From: Myxococcota bacterium
GTDB lineage: Bacteria > Myxococcota_A > UBA9160 > PR03
DNA length: 25,607 bases
Direction: 5' to 3'
Assembly: GCA_030066475.1 (NCBI GenBank)
Contig: JASJBO010000068.1
Coordinates: forward strand, 1-25,607
A program made the position numbers and the translations under genes. Positions 13,823-24,168 of this stretch are shown piece by piece. Position 1 is the first letter of the stretch. Every line of letters starts with the position of its first letter. The notes below the pieces were generated by a model. It saw only the letters and a list, made by a program, of their open reading frames with translations, searched no databases and was not told the origin of the DNA.

Positions 13823-14944
13823 TTAGCGACTGGGGGCCGGGCGAACGGCGAGCAGCGCGGCGCGCAGGCGGGCGTGCTCCGAGGCGTCGAGCCAGGCGTG
13901 CAGCGGCGCCCAGTCCGCCGCGTCGAGCTGGCTGGGCACCAGCGGCGCCAGCCGGGCCAGCGACGCGACGATGCGGTCGCCCAGGTGGCCCAGCGCGGGC
14001 CGCAGCTCGTGCCCCAGATCGAGACGCGGCGCGCGCCGGGGCGGCTCCTGCTGGATCCGCTTGGCGAGCTCGATCTGGAGCCCGAACAGCCCCTCGACCG
14101 ACACGGGGTCGAGGCCGCCCGTGGCGGCGCGCCCGCGAGCGGCCTCGCGCACGCGGCGCTCGCGCGCACGGTCCTCGATCGGCAGGCCGCGCTCGTGCTT
14201 CCAGCGCGCCACCGCGGGCATCAGGCCGAGCCGGCGGGCCAGCAGGTCGAGCAGGTGGTCCACCTCGGTGCGCGGCGCGGAGCCGCCCAGCCAGGCGGCG
14301 CGGCGCTCGTCGAGCCAGCCCTCGTGCTCGACCAGCCAGGCGTCGATCGGCGCGGACAGCTCGGCGACCCGGCGGGGGGCGATCCAGTACACCTTGCGAT
14401 CGGCCGGCGGCTCGCAGCGCGCCGGCACGCCGGCGCGACGGAAGTGCGGCAGCTCGAACGAGTCGGTCACGATCGCGTCGAACTCGCCGCGCTCGAGCCG
14501 CCCGGGGAGCGAGCGGTTGTCGTCGACGGTCGCGATCCGCGAGACGTCGAAGTGCGCGCGCGCCCAGCGCTCCAGGGCGCCGCCGCGATTCACGCCCACG
14601 CGCGCCGGGTCCGGCGCGCCGAGCACGCACGGGCCGCCGGCGGCGACGGCGCGCGTGAGGAGCCCGCTGACCGCCCGCTCCGGCCGCCAGGTGACGCCGC
14701 TCATCGCCACGTCGAAGGCCCCCGCCTCGACCTGGGCGCGCAGCTCGGGCCAGCGGAACGAGACCCACTCGAGCTCGCGACCGAGATCCGCCGCCAGGTG
14801 CTCGGCCACCTCGACGTCGAAGCCGCGGCCGTCGACCGAGAAGGGGGCGTAGTCGCCGCTGGTCCCGACGCGCAGCACCGGTCGCGGCGTCGCGCACGCG
14901 ACCGACAGCAGGGCGAGCAGCGCGCAGCGGGCCGCGCGACCCAC
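13823..14944 (-). CDS. Exported cyclohexadienyl dehydratase - chorismate mutase (PheC-AroQ) fusion, probable lipoprotein
   Basis: 373 residues from GTG 14944, with GGAAGG five bases before; the longer frame upstream is non-coding. Residues 1-17 (CALLALLSVAC) end in a lipobox-like VAC, so Cys17 may be lipidated; otherwise it is a cleaved signal. Residues about 24-220 are a type-3 solute-binding fold of the PheC kind: RVGTSGDYAPFS, GFDVEVAEHLA, AMSGVTW, NRGGALERWARAHF, TVDDNRS, and TDSFE with Glu164 at the position of the PheC catalytic glutamate. Residues about 228-300 are an AroQ-gamma chorismate mutase: Arg238, Lys249 in ARWKHERGLPIED, Asp258, Arg261 and QIELAKRIQ. Together they would convert chorismate through prephenate to phenylpyruvate (or act on arogenate) in the periplasm. 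The last 70 residues are of unknown role. First gene of the operon. Confidence 0.85.
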   Translation of the reverse strand: MGRAARCALLALLSVACATPRPVLRVGTSGDYAPFSVDGRGFDVEVAEHLAADLGRELEWVSFRWPELRAQVEAGAFDVAMSGVTWRPERAVSGLLTRAVAAGGPCVLGAPDPARVGVNRGGALERWARAHFDVSRIATVDDNRSLPGRLERGEFDAIVTDSFELPHFRRAGVPARCEPPADRKVYWIAPRRVAELSAPIDAWLVEHEGWLDERRAAWLGGSAPRTEVDHLLDLLARRLGLMPAVARWKHERGLPIEDRARERRVREAARGRAATGGLDPVSVEGLFGLQIELAKRIQQEPPRRAPRLDLGHELRPALGHLGDRIVASLARLAPLVPSQLDAADWAPLHAWLDASEHARLRAALLAVRPAPSR

Positions 14945-14958
14945 GTGTACCTTCCGGA

Positions 14959-14976
14959 TCGGCTTCGACAAGCCGA
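14959..14976. repeat. 18-nt inverted repeat in the divergent control region
   Basis: TCGGCTT-CGAC-AAGCCGA, with 7-bp arms and a 4-base gap, fills the centre of the 41 bases between the PheC-AroQ start (14944, minus) and the first amidohydrolase start (14986, plus). Its arms end next to each gene's ribosome binding site, so it could be an operator for both genes or a hairpin in either leader. Confidence 0.5.
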
Positions 14977-14985
14977 GGAGGATAG

Positions 14986-16116
14986 GTGCTCGCGGGATCC
15001 GTCTCACGCCGCTGCTGTCTCGTGATGGCCGTCGCCACCGGCGTCGCGGCCGGGTTGGCCTGGGCCCAGCCCATCGAGCCAGACGACGAGGCGGCGTCCG
15101 CGACCCGGACTGCGGCGGAGGCACCCAAGAACCTCGCCTACAGCCGCAAGACCGTGCCCGGGATCGAGACCACGACGCTCGGACCGCGCCGCTTCCGCGT
15201 GATCGACGTGCACGAGCACGTGGTGGACGCCTACCACGCCGAGCGCCTGCTCGCCGCGATGGACCGCTTCGGCATCGAGCGCACCTGCCTGATGGGCTCG
15301 TCGTGGTACACCTTCACGTTGAATCCGCGCTTCGGCTTCGAGCGCTGGGAGCAGAACAACGAGCGGCTGCTGGCGATCCGGCGCGAGCACCCCGACCGCT
15401 TCTGCGTGTTCGTGACGCTCGACCCGGAGGCCTTCGACGCGCTGGCCCGGCTCCAGCAGTACGTCGCGAAGGGCGCCGACGGCGTCAAGCTCTACCTCGG
15501 CCACGGCGGCCAGCACGGCAAGGGCCCGTTCCACGTGATGCCGCTCGACGACCCGCGGCTGCGGCCGCTGTTCGCCTGGCTCGAGCAGACGCAGCTCCCC
15601 ATCACCCTGCACGTCAACCTGATCAAGTACCGCGACGAGTTCGTGCGCCTGATGGACGCGTTCCCCGAGCTGCGCGTCAACGTCCCCCACTTCGGCCTGC
15701 ACAAGAACACCGCCAAGCGGCTGGCCCGGCTCGAGGCCCTGCTCGAGCGCTACCCCAACCTGTATACGGACGTGAGCTTCGGCTGGCACCAGTTCCACCT
15801 GGAGGGCTTCGAGGCGCTGGCGAAGTGGCGCACGCGCTCCCGCGACTGGCTGACGCGCAACCGCGACAAGGTGATGTTCGCCTCCGACATGGTGCTCGAG
15901 CAGAGCAAGGACGACGCCTACATCGACGACACGCTGCGCTCGTACTTCCAGCTGCTCGAGTCGCGCAAGTTCCGCTTCTTCATGGAGCCGCGCTGGCTGA
16001 TGCACGGGCTCGCGCTCGACGACGAGACGCTGCGCGCGATCTACGAGACCACGCCGCGCCGCTTCCTGCGCATGGACGGCGCCGCGACCGCGCCCGGTCG
16101 CGCCGAGGGCGGCTGA
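14986..16116 (+). CDS. Exported TIM-barrel metal-dependent amidohydrolase
   Basis: 376 residues from GTG 14986, preceded by GAGGAGGA. Residues 1-28 are a signal peptide (SRRCCLVMAVATGVAAGLAWA); the paired Arg before the hydrophobic core is Tat-like but not a full consensus. Residues about 68-365 are an amidohydrolase-2-type barrel. Metal-site residues visible: His76 and His78 in IDVHEHVVD, Lys168 in GVKLYLGHG, His209 in LHVNL, His235 in VPHFG and Asp301 in FASDM. The set is complete, so activity is likely, as a hydrolase or decarboxylase in the periplasm. It is followed with a one-base gap by a paralogue, with aligned HEH, KLYxGH, AWxEQTxLP and SDM/TDM motifs. The substrate is unknown. Confidence 0.85.
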   Translation: MLAGSVSRRCCLVMAVATGVAAGLAWAQPIEPDDEAASATRTAAEAPKNLAYSRKTVPGIETTTLGPRRFRVIDVHEHVVDAYHAERLLAAMDRFGIERTCLMGSSWYTFTLNPRFGFERWEQNNERLLAIRREHPDRFCVFVTLDPEAFDALARLQQYVAKGADGVKLYLGHGGQHGKGPFHVMPLDDPRLRPLFAWLEQTQLPITLHVNLIKYRDEFVRLMDAFPELRVNVPHFGLHKNTAKRLARLEALLERYPNLYTDVSFGWHQFHLEGFEALAKWRTRSRDWLTRNRDKVMFASDMVLEQSKDDAYIDDTLRSYFQLLESRKFRFFMEPRWLMHGLALDDETLRAIYETTPRRFLRMDGAATAPGRAEGG

Positions 16117-16117
16117 G

Positions 16118-18799
16118 TTGCGCGCCGGTCCGCTCGCCCTGGCGCTGCTCGCGGCGCTGGTCGGCGGCTGCGACACACCGCCGAGCGAGTCCGAGCGGTT
16201 GGCGGCCCTCGAGGCTGAGAACGCGCTGCTGCGCCACCGGCTCGAGCGCGGCGGCGCCGGGCCGGACGACTTCGCGATCACCAACGCGCACGAGCACCTG
16301 ATGCGGCGCGACCACCTCGACAAGTACCTGGCGGCGGCGCGCGCCGCCGGCATCCGGCGCACGGTGTTCGTCGCGAGCCCCGAGTTCACGATCTGGGGCA
16401 AGGGCTCGAAGCAGGCGGGCATCCGCGAGAACCTCGAGGAGATCCTCGCCGGCGCGCGCGAGCATCCGGACGAGGTGGTGCCCTTCACGGCCGTGTCGCC
16501 GGAATGGGAGGATCCCCTGGCGGCGCTGCGCGCCGACGTCGCGGCCGGCGCGCGCGGCTTGAAGCTCTACAGCGGCCACTCGCGCTTCCACGACCGGCCG
16601 CTCGACGCGCCCAACATGATGCCGCTCTACGCCTGGGCCGAGCAGACCGGGCTGCCGGTGCTCTGGCACGTGCGCCTGCCCCGCTACCTGGCCGAGTTCG
16701 AGCGCGTGATGGAGGCCCACCCCGACCTGAACGTGGTGGTGGCGCACTACGCGGTGGTCTTCTGGGTGCCCAGCGCCGAGAACCTGGCCATGCTGCGGCG
16801 CCTGCTCGACCGCTACCCGCGCCTGCGCCTCGACACGAGCCTGGGCACGCGCCGCATCCTGGTGGACGGCCTGGCGCGCATGGCCGAGCACCGCGACGTC
16901 TGGCGCGAGCTGATCACCGCGTACCCCGACCGCTTCGTGATGGGGACCGACATGGTGGTCACCGGGAACCGCGAGAAGACGGTGCCGTGGATCCTCGAGG
17001 TCATGCTGGGCGCGCGCGCGCAGCTCGAGCGCGAGAGCTTCGTCCTGCCGCTGGCGGCCGGCTACAGCCGCTACACGCGCGACGACATCGACCCCACCGG
17101 CCGCCTGGGCGGCCTGGCGCTGCCCTCCGACGTCCTCGAAAAGCTCTACGAGACCAACCCCGCCGCCTGGCTCGACGCCTGGGACGGATCCAGCAGCGAG
17201 GCTGCCGGCCCCCAGTGGCCCGCGCTGCCACCGCTCTCGTGGAGCCGGCACGAGTCGCTCAAGGGCTGGCTGCTGGTGGCGCTGCCGCTCGCCGCCTGGC
17301 TCGCGGCGAGCGCGCGGCGCCGTCCGCTCGCCACCCGCCTGGCGGCGGGCGCACCGCTCGCGGGGCTGGCGCTGCTCGCCGTCGCCAACTACGCGGCCTG
17401 GGAGCGCGAGGTCCAGCCCGGGGGCGTCGAGGCCTACGACGTCTTCCACTACTACATGGGCGGCAAGTACCGCGCCGAGCTGGGGACCGAGCGCCTCTAC
17501 GCCTGCGCGCTGGTGGCCGATCGCGAGCAGGCCGCGCCGCGCTTCGAGCACGTCGACCTGGTGCGCGACCTCGCCAGCTACGAGGTGACCGCTGCCGACA
17601 CCGCGCTCGCCGACCCCGCTGCCTGCACGCGTCACTTCGAGCCGGCGCGCTGGGAGGCCTTTCGCGCCGACCTGGCCTGGTTCCAGCCACGCCTGACGCC
17701 GCGCACCTGGGAGCGCGTGTTCATCGACCGGGGCACCAACGCGAGCCCCGTCTGGCACCTGCTCGGAGGCGCCCTGGCGCGCATGACGCCGGCGTCGGCG
17801 CTGCCCCTCGTGGCGACGCTCGATCTGGTGTTCCTCGCCGTGGCCCTCGGCTGCGTGGCGTGGGCGTTCGGCGGACTCGCGTTCTGGGTGGCGCTGGCGT
17901 TCCTGGCCAGCTCGTTCGCGTCGCGCTGGCCGCCGATCGGCACCGCGCTGTTCCGCTACGACTGGGTCGCCCTGGCCGTCGTCGCGGTGTGCCTGCTCCA
18001 GCGTGGCCGCGCGCTCGGCGCCGGGGCGGCGCTGGCGGGCGCCGCCGGGCTGCGGCTGTTCCCGGTGCTGCTGTTCGCGGGTGTGGCGGCGCAGGAGCTG
18101 CGCCGCGCCTGGGCGGCACGGCGCCTCGACGAGCGCGGGCGGCGCCTCGCCCTCGGCTTCGCGGGCGCGGGCGCGCTGCTCGCCGGGGCCGCGCTGCTCG
18201 ACGGCGGCGCCGCCTCGTTCGGCGCGTTCGCCGAGAAGATCGGCGTGCACGCCGCGCCGGAGAACGTCTCGGTCATGCGGGTGGGCCTGCCCGTCGCAGC
18301 GGCCTGGCGCGGCGAGCTGTCGCCCGAGCAGGGGGCGTCGCGCGCGCTGCTCGACAACAAGCGCCGCCTGATGGCGCTCCAGGCCCCCGCCCTGCGGGTC
18401 CTGGCGCTGCTGTTCGCCGCCGCCGTGCTGGCCCTCGCGCCGCGCGTGCCGGTCCCGGAGGCCGTGCTGCTGGGCTTCGCGCTGCTGCCGCTCACGCTCC
18501 AGGCGTCCTACTACTACTACGTGATCGCCGTGGTCCCGGTCGTGATCCACGCCTGGCGCCTGCCGCGCTGGGACCACGCGCTGGCGCTCGCGCTCCTGAT
18601 GTGGCTGAACGCCGCGGCGCTGTTCCTGAACGAAGCGGGCGTGCCGCGCTACCTGATCCTGGCGCCCGGCTCCTGGCTGGTGGGGCTCTACGCGCTCTGC
18701 CTGTTCGGCATCGCGTGGCGCGCGCGCTCGGCCACGGCGTCGGCGCGAACGCGAGCCGACGCGCAGCACGCCACGCGAGCGCGAAGTCCCGTCAGCTAG
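16118..18799 (+). CDS. Lipoprotein amidohydrolase fused to a polytopic membrane (GT-C/GT87-like) domain
   Basis: 893 residues from TTG 16118. LVGGC is a perfect lipobox with Cys18; Asp follows at +2, the inner-membrane retention signal in E. coli. Residues 22-45 form a short leucine-zipper helix. Residues about 50-350 are an amidohydrolase barrel with His58, His60, Lys149, His184, His210 and Asp278 in metal-site positions, paralogous to the preceding gene. From about residue 380 to the end there are many hydrophobic helices, with an early loop motif NYAAWE, YDVFHYYMGGKY, LYACALVAD, then NASPVWHLLGG and FRYDWVAL, like polytopic glycosyltransferase-like families of unknown role. No stop or frameshift interrupts the join. 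The barrel would lie in the periplasm, tethered to the membrane enzyme. Domain halves are well supported; joint function is unknown. Confidence 0.8.
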   Translation: MRAGPLALALLAALVGGCDTPPSESERLAALEAENALLRHRLERGGAGPDDFAITNAHEHLMRRDHLDKYLAAARAAGIRRTVFVASPEFTIWGKGSKQAGIRENLEEILAGAREHPDEVVPFTAVSPEWEDPLAALRADVAAGARGLKLYSGHSRFHDRPLDAPNMMPLYAWAEQTGLPVLWHVRLPRYLAEFERVMEAHPDLNVVVAHYAVVFWVPSAENLAMLRRLLDRYPRLRLDTSLGTRRILVDGLARMAEHRDVWRELITAYPDRFVMGTDMVVTGNREKTVPWILEVMLGARAQLERESFVLPLAAGYSRYTRDDIDPTGRLGGLALPSDVLEKLYETNPAAWLDAWDGSSSEAAGPQWPALPPLSWSRHESLKGWLLVALPLAAWLAASARRRPLATRLAAGAPLAGLALLAVANYAAWEREVQPGGVEAYDVFHYYMGGKYRAELGTERLYACALVADREQAAPRFEHVDLVRDLASYEVTAADTALADPAACTRHFEPARWEAFRADLAWFQPRLTPRTWERVFIDRGTNASPVWHLLGGALARMTPASALPLVATLDLVFLAVALGCVAWAFGGLAFWVALAFLASSFASRWPPIGTALFRYDWVALAVVAVCLLQRGRALGAGAALAGAAGLRLFPVLLFAGVAAQELRRAWAARRLDERGRRLALGFAGAGALLAGAALLDGGAASFGAFAEKIGVHAAPENVSVMRVGLPVAAAWRGELSPEQGASRALLDNKRRLMALQAPALRVLALLFAAAVLALAPRVPVPEAVLLGFALLPLTLQASYYYYVIAVVPVVIHAWRLPRWDHALALALLMWLNAAALFLNEAGVPRYLILAPGSWLVGLYALCLFGIAWRARSATASARTRADAQHATRARSPVS

Positions 18800-19683: not shown

Positions 19684-20997
19684 ATGCTCCCGCCTCCCGG
19701 TCGAGGACACGCGCTGCGCGTGGCGGCGCGGCTGCTCCAGGCGGTCGCGGCCGCCTGCGGAGCGGGGGTCGTGCTGCTGCGCGAGGGCTGGCGCCGGCGC
19801 GGACGCGACGGCTGGCTCGGCGCGCTGGGCGCCGCCCTGGTGCACGCGAGCAACCGGCTGGGCGCCACCTTCATCAAGGTGGGCCAGATCGCCTCGACCC
19901 GCGCCGACCTGCTGCCGCCCGCGATGATCGCGGAGCTCGCCACCTTGCGCGACCGCGTCCCGCCGTTCCCGTACTCGCAGGTGCAGGATACGATCGAGGC
20001 GAGCCTGGGCCAGCCGCTCGGGGCGCTGTTCACGTCGTTCGACCGCGAGCCGGTGGCGGCCGCCTCGGTCGCGCAGGTGCACCGCGCGGTGCTGCGCGAG
20101 AGCGGCGAGACGGTGGCCGTGAAGGTGCGGCGCCCGGACCTCCTCGAGAAGGTCGCGCTCGACCGCAGCATTCTGCGGTTCGCGTCGCGGAACCTCGAGC
20201 GCTGGGTCCCGACGCTGCGGCTGGTGGCGCTCGAGGCGGCCGTGGGGGAGTTCTGCGACGCCGTGGAGACCCAGATCCACCTGGACCGGGAGGCTGATCA
20301 CAACCGCCGCTTCCGGGCGAACTTCGCCGACGATCCCGACGTGCACTTCCCACGCCTGGTGCCCGCGCTGTGCTCGGACAGCGTGCTGACCATGGAGTTC
20401 GTGGAAGCCATCCAGGAGAGCGAGCTGGAGGCCAGCGGCGTCGACGTCGCCCGCGTGGTCGAGGCCGGCATGCGCTGCGTGTGCCGCATGGTGTTCCGCG
20501 ACGGCTTCGTGCACGCCGACCTCCACCCCGGCAACCTGCGCTTCACGCAGGCCAACGGCGTGGTGCTGCTCGATCTCGGTCTGGTCGGCGAGATGGCGGA
20601 AGCCGACCGGATCTCGACCGCGCAGGTGCTGTTCGCGTTCGCCACCGGGGACGGGCGCACCGTGGCGCGGCTGTTCCACGAGCACGCGCCGCATGCGGCG
20701 ACGCCGGACTACGAGCGCTACGAGCGCGAGGTGTGCGAGTTCGTCGAGCGCCTGCGCCACCGCGGCCTCGGCAACGTGGAGCTCACGATCGAGATCGGCC
20801 GCCTGCTCGACGTCCTGCGGCGCCACCGCATCCAGGCCAAGAGCCACATGACGATGGTGAACATCGCGCTCGCGACCGCCGAGGGCCTGGGCAAGCGCCT
20901 GGCGCCCGAGCTGAACCTGGCCCAGCAGGCCCTTCCCTACCTCGCCGAGGCGATCGGCGTGCCGCCCCCCGCGCCGGCGGCTGCCGGAGACCGCTGA
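19684..20997 (+). CDS. UbiB/ADCK (ABC1) family atypical kinase
   Basis: 437 residues from ATG 19684. Diagnostic motifs: Lys65 and Gln68 in [16 protein letters not shown] (the KxGQ inhibitory motif), an Ala-rich nucleotide loop [12 protein letters not shown] (124-135), Lys147 in [14 protein letters not shown] with Asp279 and Asn284, and DLG at 297-299. These proteins are ATPases or kinases that support quinone biosynthesis or lipid transport at membranes. One hydrophobic segment lies at residues 14-33, but the C-terminal membrane anchor usual in true UbiB is absent, and no ubiquinone genes adjoin, so I give no gene symbol. It is followed by the DUF255 gene after 35 bases. Confidence 0.92.
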
Positions 20998-21017
20998 GCG
21001 TCGCGCCGTCCGCCCGC

Positions 21018-21023
21018 TACCCT
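21018..21023 (+). promoter_or_regulatory. TAnnnT box 9 nt before the DUF255 gene
   Basis: TACCCT is followed by nine bases and the ATG at 21033, the same arrangement as at 19669-19684, again without a Shine-Dalgarno. Confidence 0.35.
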
Positions 21024-21032
21024 GCGCTCACC

Positions 21033-23096
21033 ATGGCCGACGCGACCCCCGAGCCCCCGACCAATCGGCTCGCCGAAGAGACCAGCGCCTACCTGCGCCA
21101 GCACATGCGGAACCCGGTGGACTGGTATCCGTGGGGCGCGGAGGCCCTCGAGCGCGCCCGTGCCGAGGACAAGCCGCTGCTCGTCTCGATCGGCTATAGC
21201 GCCTGCCACTGGTGCCACGTGATGGAGCGCGAGTCGTTCGAGGACGCGGGCACCGCCCAGCTCATGAACCGCGACTTCGTCCCGGTCAAGGTGGACCGCG
21301 AGGAGCGGCCCGACGTCGACCGGATCTACATGGACTACGTGGTGCGTCTGGCGGGCCACGGCGGCTGGCCGCTGACGGTCTTCTGCACGCCCGACGGCCG
21401 GCCCTTCTACGGCGGCACCTACTACCCGCCGGAGCCGCGCCACGGTCTGCCGTCGTTCCGCCAGGTGCTCGACCAGATCGCGCGCAGCTACCGCGAGCGG
21501 CGCGGCGACGTCGAGAAGGCCGCGGCGCAGGCGCTCGCCGTGCTGGCGCAGCGGCTCCAGGGCGTGGCGTCGGAGCTGCCCGGCCGCGCCACGCTGGCGC
21601 AGGCCGCGGCGCGCATCCTCGAGGGCGCCGACCGCCAGCGCGGGGGCCTGGGCCAGGGTGGCCCCAAGTTCCCGACCCCGACCGGGCTCGACGCACTGCT
21701 GGCCGCGGTGGACGTGCTGCCCGAGGCCGAGGCGCGCGAGGCGCTCGAGCACGTCGTCTTCAGCTGCCACGAGATGGCACGGCGGGGCCTCTACGACCAC
21801 GTCGGCGGCGGCTTCCACCGCTACTGCGTGGACGCCTCGTGGACGATCCCGCACTTCGAGAAGATGCTCTACGACCAGGGCCTGCTGCTGCGCGTCTACG
21901 CCGAGGCCTGGCGGCGCGGCGGCGCCCGCGACGACGACCTGATATGGCCGATCCGCGAGACGGTGGCCTACCTGCGCCGCGAGATGGCCGGCCCCGACGG
22001 CGGCTGGTTCGCCAGCCAGGACGCCGACAGCGAGGGCGAGGAGGGGCGCTTCTACGTCTGGACGCCCGAGCAGCTGGGCGACGTGCTGGGTGCCGAGCGC
22101 GGGGCGGCGTTCGGCGCGGCGTACGGCGTCGGGGTGCCGGGCAACTTCGAGCACGGCACGTCGCACCTGGTCGACGCCGCGCGGCGCCCGCGCGCGGAGT
22201 GGGCCGGCGAACGCGAGGCGCTGCGCGCGGCGCGCTCGACGCGCATCCCGCCCGACACCGACCACAAGCGCGTGGCCGCCTGGAACGCCTACACGATCTC
22301 GGGGCTGGCGCGTGCGGGCAGCCTGCTCGATGACGCCGCGATGCTGCGCGACGCGGTCGCCGCCAGCGACTTCGTATGGGAGCGCCTGCGCGACGCCGAG
22401 GGCCGCCTGCTGCGCAGCTACGATGGCGGGCGCGCCCACGTGCTGGGCTTCCTCGAGGACGTGGGCGCCCTGCTGGAGGCCCAGCTCGACCTGTTCCGCG
22501 CGGGGGCGGGCGACCGCTTCCTCGAGAGCGCGAGCGCGCTGGCCGACGACGTGATCGCGCGCTTCTGGGACCCCGACGAGCAGGACCTCTTCCTGACCGC
22601 GGCCGACGCCGAGCCGCTGCCGCAGCGGCCGCGCTCCGAGCCCGACGGCGCCACGCCGCACTCGGCCGGCATGGCGACGCTCGGCCTGCTGCGCGCCGCG
22701 ACACTCACGGGCAACGAGTCGTGGCGCCGCGTCGTCGAGCAGCTGCTGCGCGGGCAGGCGTTCGCCCTGGAGCGCCACCCCGAGGCGTTCCCCACGCTCG
22801 CGCGCGCCGCGGCGCTCGCCGAGCGCGGGCTCTCGGTGGCCGTGGTGATCGGCGCGCCCGACCACGCCGCGACCCGTGCCCTGGCCCTGCGCGCGCGCCG
22901 CCTGCTCGCACCCGAAGACGGTGTCGTCGTCGCGGCCCCGGGCGCCGCAGCGCCGCCGCAGCTCGACCCGACCTGGCTCGCGGGCCGCGAGCCCCAGGAC
23001 GGTCGCCCCACCGCCTACGTCTGCCGCGGCGTCACCTGCAGCCTCCCCGTCACGGACCCGGCCGAGCTGGCCCCGCTGCCCGCTGACTCGCGCTAG
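21033..23096 (+). CDS. Thioredoxin-domain protein, DUF255/YyaL (SSP411) family
   Basis: 687 residues from ATG 21033, the usual length for the family. Residues about 10-170 are a thioredoxin-like DUF255 domain: [23 protein letters not shown], and the redox motif CHWC at 58-61 in [14 protein letters not shown], then [11 protein letters not shown] and GGWPLTVF. Residues about 180-687 form an alpha/alpha six-barrel like those of sugar epimerases: [37 protein letters not shown] and [12 protein letters not shown]. The family is widespread, cytoplasmic in bacteria, and without an established reaction. The usual DDK-type motif before WN appears here as [11 protein letters not shown]. It is probably in one transcription direction with the upstream kinase-like and downstream DHS-like genes. 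Confidence 0.93.
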
Positions 23097-23118
23097 GGTC
23101 CGCCGCGAGGAGGGCTCG

Positions 23119-24168
23119 ATGGGCAACGCGCGGGAGATCGGAAAGCTACGCGACGGCCACCAGGACGGCCTGGAGCCGGTCCACCCGCTCGACGTGGGTG
23201 CCGCCAGCAGCGTCGACGCGCTGGTGCGCGGCATGGCGGGCACCGCCTTCGGCGGCCGTCGGCTCGGCGAAGCCGCCGACGTGTTCGAGGAGATGGTGCG
23301 CGACGAGGACTGCTTCCGCGTCGTGACCCTCTCGGGCGCCATGACCATCGCCAAGCAGGGGCTCGTGCTGTGCGAGATGATCGACCGCGGCTGGGTGCAG
23401 GCCATCGTGTCGACCGGCGCGCTGATGACCCACGGTCTGGTCGAGGGCGCCGGCATGCTGCACTTCAAGCACCGGCCCGGCATGGACGACGAGGAGCTCT
23501 ACCGCAAGGGCTACAACCGCGTCTACGACACCATCGAGCTCGAGAAGAACCTGTACGACACCGAGGAGGTGCTGGGCCGCGCGCTCGAGAAGGTGGCCGA
23601 CGGGGAAGTGCTGTCGAGCGCGCGCATGACGCGCCTGATCGGCGAAGACCTCGGCCGCCACACCGCCGAGCGCGCCATCCTGAAGAGCGCCGTCGCGCGC
23701 GACGTGCCCGTCTACGTCCCGGCCTTCACCGACAGCGAGCTCGGCCTCGACTTCGCGCTCTGGAACCGCGCCCGCGTGCGCGACGGCCGGCCCGCGATCC
23801 GCTTCGATCCCTTCCTCGACCTCGAAGACTTCACCGAGCGCATCGTCCCCGCCCGGCGTCTCGGCATCTTCACGATCGGCGGCGGCGTCCCGCGCAACTG
23901 GGCCCAGCAGGTCGCGCCCTACCTCGAGATCCTGAGCGCCCGCCTGAAGCTGAACCTCCCGCTGCAGCGCTACCGCTACGCCGTCCGCATCTGCCCCGAG
24001 CCCGAGCACTGGGGCGGCCTCTCGGGCTGCTCGTACGAGGAGGGCGTCTCCTGGGGCAAGTTCGTCCCGCCCAGCGAGGGCGGCCGCTTCGCCGAGGTCT
24101 ACGCCGACGCGACGATCGCCTGGCCGCTGGTGGTGCGGGCGGTGATCGAGCGGACGGAGAAGCGGTAG
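23119..24168 (+). CDS. Deoxyhypusine synthase-like protein (possible homospermidine synthase)
   Basis: 349 residues from ATG 23119, with GAGGAGG six bases upstream. The order of motifs follows the deoxyhypusine synthase fold: TLSGAMTIAKQGL, VSTGALMTHGLVEG, then IFTIGGGVPRNWAQQ for NAD binding, and EEGVSWGKF, where Lys314 corresponds to the active-site Lys that carries the aminobutyl group. The family moves an aminobutyl group from spermidine to a Lys of eIF5A; bacteria lack eIF5A, and many bacterial members make homospermidine by using putrescine as acceptor. That role, or another polyamine transfer, is therefore likelier. Cytoplasmic. It starts 22 bases after the DUF255 gene. Confidence 0.9.
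   Translation: MGNAREIGKLRDGHQDGLEPVHPLDVGAASSVDALVRGMAGTAFGGRRLGEAADVFEEMVRDEDCFRVVTLSGAMTIAKQGLVLCEMIDRGWVQAIVSTGALMTHGLVEGAGMLHFKHRPGMDDEELYRKGYNRVYDTIELEKNLYDTEEVLGRALEKVADGEVLSSARMTRLIGEDLGRHTAERAILKSAVARDVPVYVPAFTDSELGLDFALWNRARVRDGRPAIRFDPFLDLEDFTERIVPARRLGIFTIGGGVPRNWAQQVAPYLEILSARLKLNLPLQRYRYAVRICPEPEHWGGLSGCSYEEGVSWGKFVPPSEGGRFAEVYADATIAWPLVVRAVIERTEKR

Follow-up and report, generated by a model that had tools for sequence, protein, structure and literature searches.

A predicted periplasmic amidohydrolase fused to a GT-C-like membrane domain in a Myxococcota bacterium

A 25,607-nucleotide stretch of DNA from a Myxococcota bacterium (contig JASJBO010000068.1; hereafter the window) contains an open reading frame (ORF) at 16118..18799 on the plus strand that encodes a protein of 893 residues from a TTG start, in which a probable lipoprotein signal and an amidohydrolase barrel are followed by a polytopic membrane domain. 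The locus raises two questions: whether this fusion is real, and what a hydrolase and such a membrane domain would do on one chain. The fusion is very likely real, and on balance the protein is probably an inner-membrane GT-C glycosyltransferase that acts on a lipid-linked sugar and carries, on a flexible tether, a periplasmic hydrolase that serves the same pathway.

A single reading frame across the junction

The ORF is uninterrupted, as the original prediction stated, and is open through the junction both in the window and in P0002, from a second NCBI contig (7255 bases, not necessarily an independent sample) that carries the identical fused frame; D881G and Q883R are the sole internal differences between the P0002 and window proteins. 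The TTG at 16118 is the first ATG, GTG or TTG codon of the ORF. One base separates it from the stop codon of the 376-residue upstream gene, and GAGGGCGG is located five bases 5′ of it.

Across the junction, the GC fraction at third codon positions is 0.85–1.00 in all seven 20-codon intervals spanning residues 336–415. Residues 336–386 include no in-frame ATG, GTG or TTG, the sole candidates being CTG at 370, 385 and 386, and the first in-frame GTG past the junction is residue 387, which already falls within the first transmembrane helix. Lacking an ordinary start near its own N terminus, the membrane half depends on fused translation. The unbroken codon-position signal, the lack of an internal start and the matching frame of P0002 are the grounds on which we regard the fusion as very likely real rather than artefactual, and chance read-through is ruled out by the codon-position composition together with the second contig. 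An assembly or sequencing error at the junction would fit the occurrence of each half as a separate protein in the other relatives found; the shared frame in the second contig and the continuous codon-position signal nevertheless make it extremely improbable. The original prediction had asked whether homologues always encode the halves apart: the other relatives found of either half do, but the window contig and P0002 do not. A plasmid origin found no tblastn match in a plasmid collection.

The hydrolase and membrane halves

The soluble half is an Amidohydro_2 TIM barrel (16271..17185, plus strand; residues 52–356). Pfam family Amidohydro_2 (PF04909) matches residues 54–352 with an E-value of 1.2e-22 and 81.5 bits, against a gathering score of 26.4. 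The cog2159-type site is complete, with metal ligands H58, H60, H184 and D278 and the catalytic H210, assigned by order to the ligands given in PMC6305744 and kept in 23/23 sequences. The complete metal-dependent barrel that had been proposed is thus borne out, and the intact ligand residues suggest a mononuclear-metal hydrolase. The lone Amidohydro_2 proteins among the matches listed (P0025–P0097) share the barrel, at up to 63% identity, and have no membrane glycosyltransferase attached; 70 of the 73 resemble the fused barrel more closely than they do the paralogue encoded upstream.

Structurally related enzymes, namely 2-pyrone-4,6-dicarboxylate lactonase (4d8l, 4di9) and the ACMSD-type cog2159 enzymes, belong to aromatic catabolism. 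We consider it quite improbable that the barrel is instead a decarboxylase resembling ACMSD, LigW or iso-orotate decarboxylase. In cog2159 decarboxylases, as described in PMC6305744, a carboxylate-binding Arg lies at the catalytic His+11; this residue is not conserved in the fused barrel, where the position is E221, and any Arg within +9 to +13 occurs in just 5 of the 23. The upstream paralogue has an Arg at the catalytic His+10. The lactonases 4di9 (19.9) and 4d8l (19.5) also score slightly ahead of the decarboxylases, although differences below 1–2 mean little.

Ahead of the barrel lies a probable lipoprotein signal peptide (16118..16171, plus strand; residues 1–18), with a lipobox-like VGGC and Asp at +2; the motif, LVGGC-D at residues 14–19, was read by eye from the sequence. 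The Asp at +2, present as described and read by the original prediction as an inner-membrane retention signal, is superfluous in a protein with a dozen membrane helices, and most of the lone relatives read have a different residue there. A loose pattern finds lipobox-like N-terminal matches in 41 of the 73 lone barrel relatives. A short helix is modelled at residues 24–43 (16187..16246, plus strand), where a leucine zipper had been proposed; nothing about it is zipper-specific, because many lone relatives have a comparable short helix ahead of the barrel.

The membrane half comprises a core at 17312..18739 (plus strand; residues 399–874), delimited from the structure model and an alignment to PimE. 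The search for a GT-C fold that the original prediction had recommended found one: by Foldseek the nearest fold is PimE (PDB entries 9dm5 and 9dm7), a GT87 GT-C mannosyltransferase of approximately 12% identity that has neither the extra N-terminal helix nor the hydrolase domain of the window protein. Modelling therefore supports a GT-C transmembrane fold of the GT-CA subclass for the C-terminal half. Pfam gives no match at E 0.01 for this half, and the window protein does not reach the gathering score of GT87 (PF09594), having no match to it at all; its relative P0018 passes (30.6 versus 25 bits), and GT87 matches at E 0.01 occur in 3 of the 27 aligned core-family members. The core is a relative of GT87 that is not filed as a member. 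Matches to Piwi proteins, obtained when the GT-C profile was run against PDB sequences (E 1.6–1.7), were taken as chance.

The polytopic domain and its YDVFHYYMGGKY loop are both present as proposed, the loop motif occupying 17435..17470 (plus strand; residues 440–451). The putative catalytic residue D441 lies near the start of helix 439–450, with Y445 at D+4, and an acidic residue (Asp or Glu) occupies the D441 position in 26 of the 27 aligned members. By position and spacing alone, D441 fits the catalytic acid that GT-CA enzymes have in their first periplasmic loop, at the JM1 tip; D441 and Y445 were compared with PimE D58 and Y62, as given in PMC12041525. The fold and the D/E-x3-Y motif point to a lipid-linked sugar as the putative substrate.

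Between the two halves lies a flexible linker (17192..17248, plus strand; residues 359–377), recognized from low predicted local distance difference test (pLDDT) values, composition and start codons. It is followed by an extra transmembrane helix with a predicted outside N terminus (17249..17311, plus strand; residues 378–398, corresponding to helix 18–38 of model m57bef2c822cd, oriented by its flanking charges). This helix precedes the range matched to PimE, which covers model residues 39–512; the rows for ALG3 and ALG9 begin at 34 and 32. In PMC12041525, both termini of PimE are placed in the cytoplasm. The loop past the extra helix is more positive than the preceding stretch in 24 of the 27 members, a count in which the loop slices are short in seven and nothing precedes the helix in two. 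With this positive-inside loop, the extra helix leads us to expect an outside N terminus, as suits an exported barrel, and hence a barrel on the periplasmic side, in keeping with the topology of the original prediction. A full-length model (alignment A6, 36 sequences, eight of them barrel rows) gives good confidence for both domains, with pLDDT below 50 at linker residues 359–380 and a predicted template modelling score of 0.60. These values define no arrangement of the halves, so the barrel–membrane interface that the original prediction had suggested looking for did not appear; a flexible tether fits the model best.

Relatives, front domains and gene neighbourhood

Three protein searches, in which the best 7993, 7994 and 7995 candidates were scored, yielded the protein counts that follow, each covering the matches listed. 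Amidohydro_2 was found solely in P0002 among the 23 listed proteins matching the membrane half. A search with the barrel half restricted to proteins of 491–1563 residues gave three among the matches listed, of which P0002 alone was joined to the membrane domain; this search passed over P0096 (549 residues), known from another barrel search, so it misses some relatives and may have missed further fusions. When genome contigs were scanned with the full protein, 0/96 pattern matches were confirmed, and a scan with profile A2 confirmed 1/47, the distant L001 (29% identity). No closer relative was found in the class of genome G001 (two genomes). A sample of 377 genomes from the G001 phylum gave GT-C matches in at least 135, with up to three candidates scored per genome, the centre genome counted and weak matches included. 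Retrieval from other genomes gave 63 GT-C frames, none of which has an amidohydrolase barrel. In a limited literature collection, no account of an amidohydrolase–GT-C/GT87 fusion was found, and a search there for GT-C fusions to discoidin or periplasmic domains gave only titles judged unrelated.

A different front domain recurs in these relatives. A discoidin-like secreted domain precedes the GT-C core in 16 of the 63 frames (L048, L056–L058, L060, L062–L067, L069, L072–L074 and L077), and the two are separated by a variable number of hydrophobic segments, from two up to roughly six; the frames were chosen for best score or a long open frame, so the fraction should not be read as a rate. Assignment of the domain as discoidin-like is based on Pfam scores below the 28.2-bit cut-off (P0011, 26.5; P0017, 24.2; P0024, 16.7 bits) and on a profile built from five proteins. 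Most of these frames have more intervening helices than the window protein, and in L048 and L057, as in the window protein, two hydrophobic segments precede the D-x3-Y motif. A lipobox is present in four of the 16 (L063, L072, L073 and L074), which have four hydrophobic segments before a D-x3-Y motif that lacks the His. The uncharacterised discoidin-like proteins (for example P0011, P0013, P0016, L048, L057, L063 and L072–L074) thus resemble the window protein in having a secreted front and a GT-C core, and differ in that the front is F5/8 type C-like rather than an amidohydrolase barrel. The GT-C relative P0020 (1341 residues) has C-terminal tetratricopeptide (TPR) repeats, another fusion type in the family.

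The original prediction had considered the architecture to be without characterised precedent. No other fused protein appears among the matches listed, but the discoidin relatives show that a lipoprotein-plus-GT-C chain is not unique. Because a secreted and sometimes lipoprotein front recurs on the GT-C core, the hydrolase is the new element, and the fusion looks like a new pairing within an existing design, not a new type of machine. These relatives also raise the alternative that the barrel serves for binding or positioning, a role that the discoidin-like, probably ligand-binding, domains may have. Since all five metal and catalytic positions are as in the lone relatives, we consider a non-enzymatic barrel improbable.

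Immediately upstream, at 14986..16116 on the plus strand, lies a paralogous amidohydrolase of 376 residues with a signal-peptide-like start, a probable operon partner that is 35% identical to the fused barrel. Judging from gene order, it probably serves the same pathway as the fused protein, and two adjoining hydrolases are compatible with a pathway having more than one hydrolytic step. The tally of fused against adjacent genes that the original prediction had called for gave fusion in one cluster, but no adjacency of GT-C and barrel in 18 GT-C neighbourhoods. Conversely, no GT-C gene was found in the neighbourhoods of L025, L026 and L086, lone amidohydrolases of other genomes that are all of the upstream-paralogue type (34–37% identity to the upstream gene versus 30–32% to the fused barrel) and for that reason provide no test of fused-type adjacency; L025 and L086 have a lipobox-like signal at their start. 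Barrel matches are few in genomes (2/188 and 2/57), and likewise do not test it.

Apart from these, the window genes that were scanned, which do not cover every frame, have mainly metabolic functions and no obvious connection to glycans. The minus-strand gene at 13823-15124 combines SBP_bac_3 (residues 84–165) with a type II chorismate mutase (290–359) behind a lipoprotein-like signal, and may encode a cyclohexadienyl dehydratase that is exported and also carries chorismate mutase. The plus-strand gene at 22876-24168 is deoxyhypusine-synthase-like (best NCBIfam match 243.8 bits, below the 434 cut-off). In the long plus-strand frame at 20370-23096, residues 249–343 weakly match TsoB, a rhodanese/DsbD-like selenoprotein (26.4 bits); the coding strand is unsettled here, as a minus-strand frame at 20937-23483 overlaps this one.

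Proposed function and its alternatives

In the arrangement that we favour, a polyprenyl-phosphate carrier would supply the sugar on the periplasmic side; the GT-C domain, whose fold is modelled, would transfer it to an acceptor, either a lipid or a glycan, and D441 would be the likely catalytic base. Its own presumed lipid, together with the linker that leads into the first membrane helix, would keep the barrel at the periplasmic face, and the barrel would most likely hydrolyse an acceptor, product or by-product of the GT-C pathway; such a step, preceding or following glycosyl transfer, might for example remove a lactone, ester or amide group. Tethering would raise the local concentration, and a fixed interface would be unnecessary. 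In a more specific form, which we put forward tentatively, the protein would be a bifunctional enzyme that edits a lipid-linked substrate and glycosylates it too: the tethered metallohydrolase would unmask or trim the acceptor for subsequent glycosylation by the GT-C half, within a family that swaps recognition and enzyme fronts.

Several observations weigh against a tethered hydrolase working with a GT-C glycosyltransferase. The Foldseek E-value for PimE is weak (6.3e-3), the equivalence of D441 and D58 was drawn from position and spacing without residue superposition, and the GT-C profile matches nothing among PDB sequences at E 1, leaving no characterised close relative. The barrel likewise has no characterised close relative, its best solved-structure match being the uncharacterised 3irs. 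The charge test of topology is weak, seven of its 27 loop slices having only 2–4 residues and two rows no pre-helix stretch. Among the matches listed the fusion is confined to one cluster, and in the 18 GT-C neighbourhoods (8–20 kb, other genomes) no barrel was found, so that no conserved family link is shown.

Some of these points would equally suit an accidental or recent fusion, in which unrelated, separately functional envelope enzymes encoded by adjacent genes were joined by loss of a stop codon and one half merely anchors the other. Confinement to a single cluster, the lack of barrels near GT-C genes, a flexible linker without a predicted arrangement and a high GC content (0.736), which eases open read-through, all agree with such an origin. 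Both active sites are still intact, though, the membrane half needs fused translation for want of an ATG, GTG or TTG of its own, and the GT-C family tolerates secreted front domains; an accidental origin is possible but, in our judgement, rather unlikely.

The tethered pair of hydrolase and glycosyltransferase belongs to a widespread GT-C group whose core has no Pfam model of its own and which appears to swap periplasmic front domains. Such front-domain fusions hint at what orphan membrane glycosyltransferases act on: the presence of a glycosyltransferase and a hydrolase in a single chain suggests successive steps. For substrate screening, the barrel on its own would offer a soluble handle.
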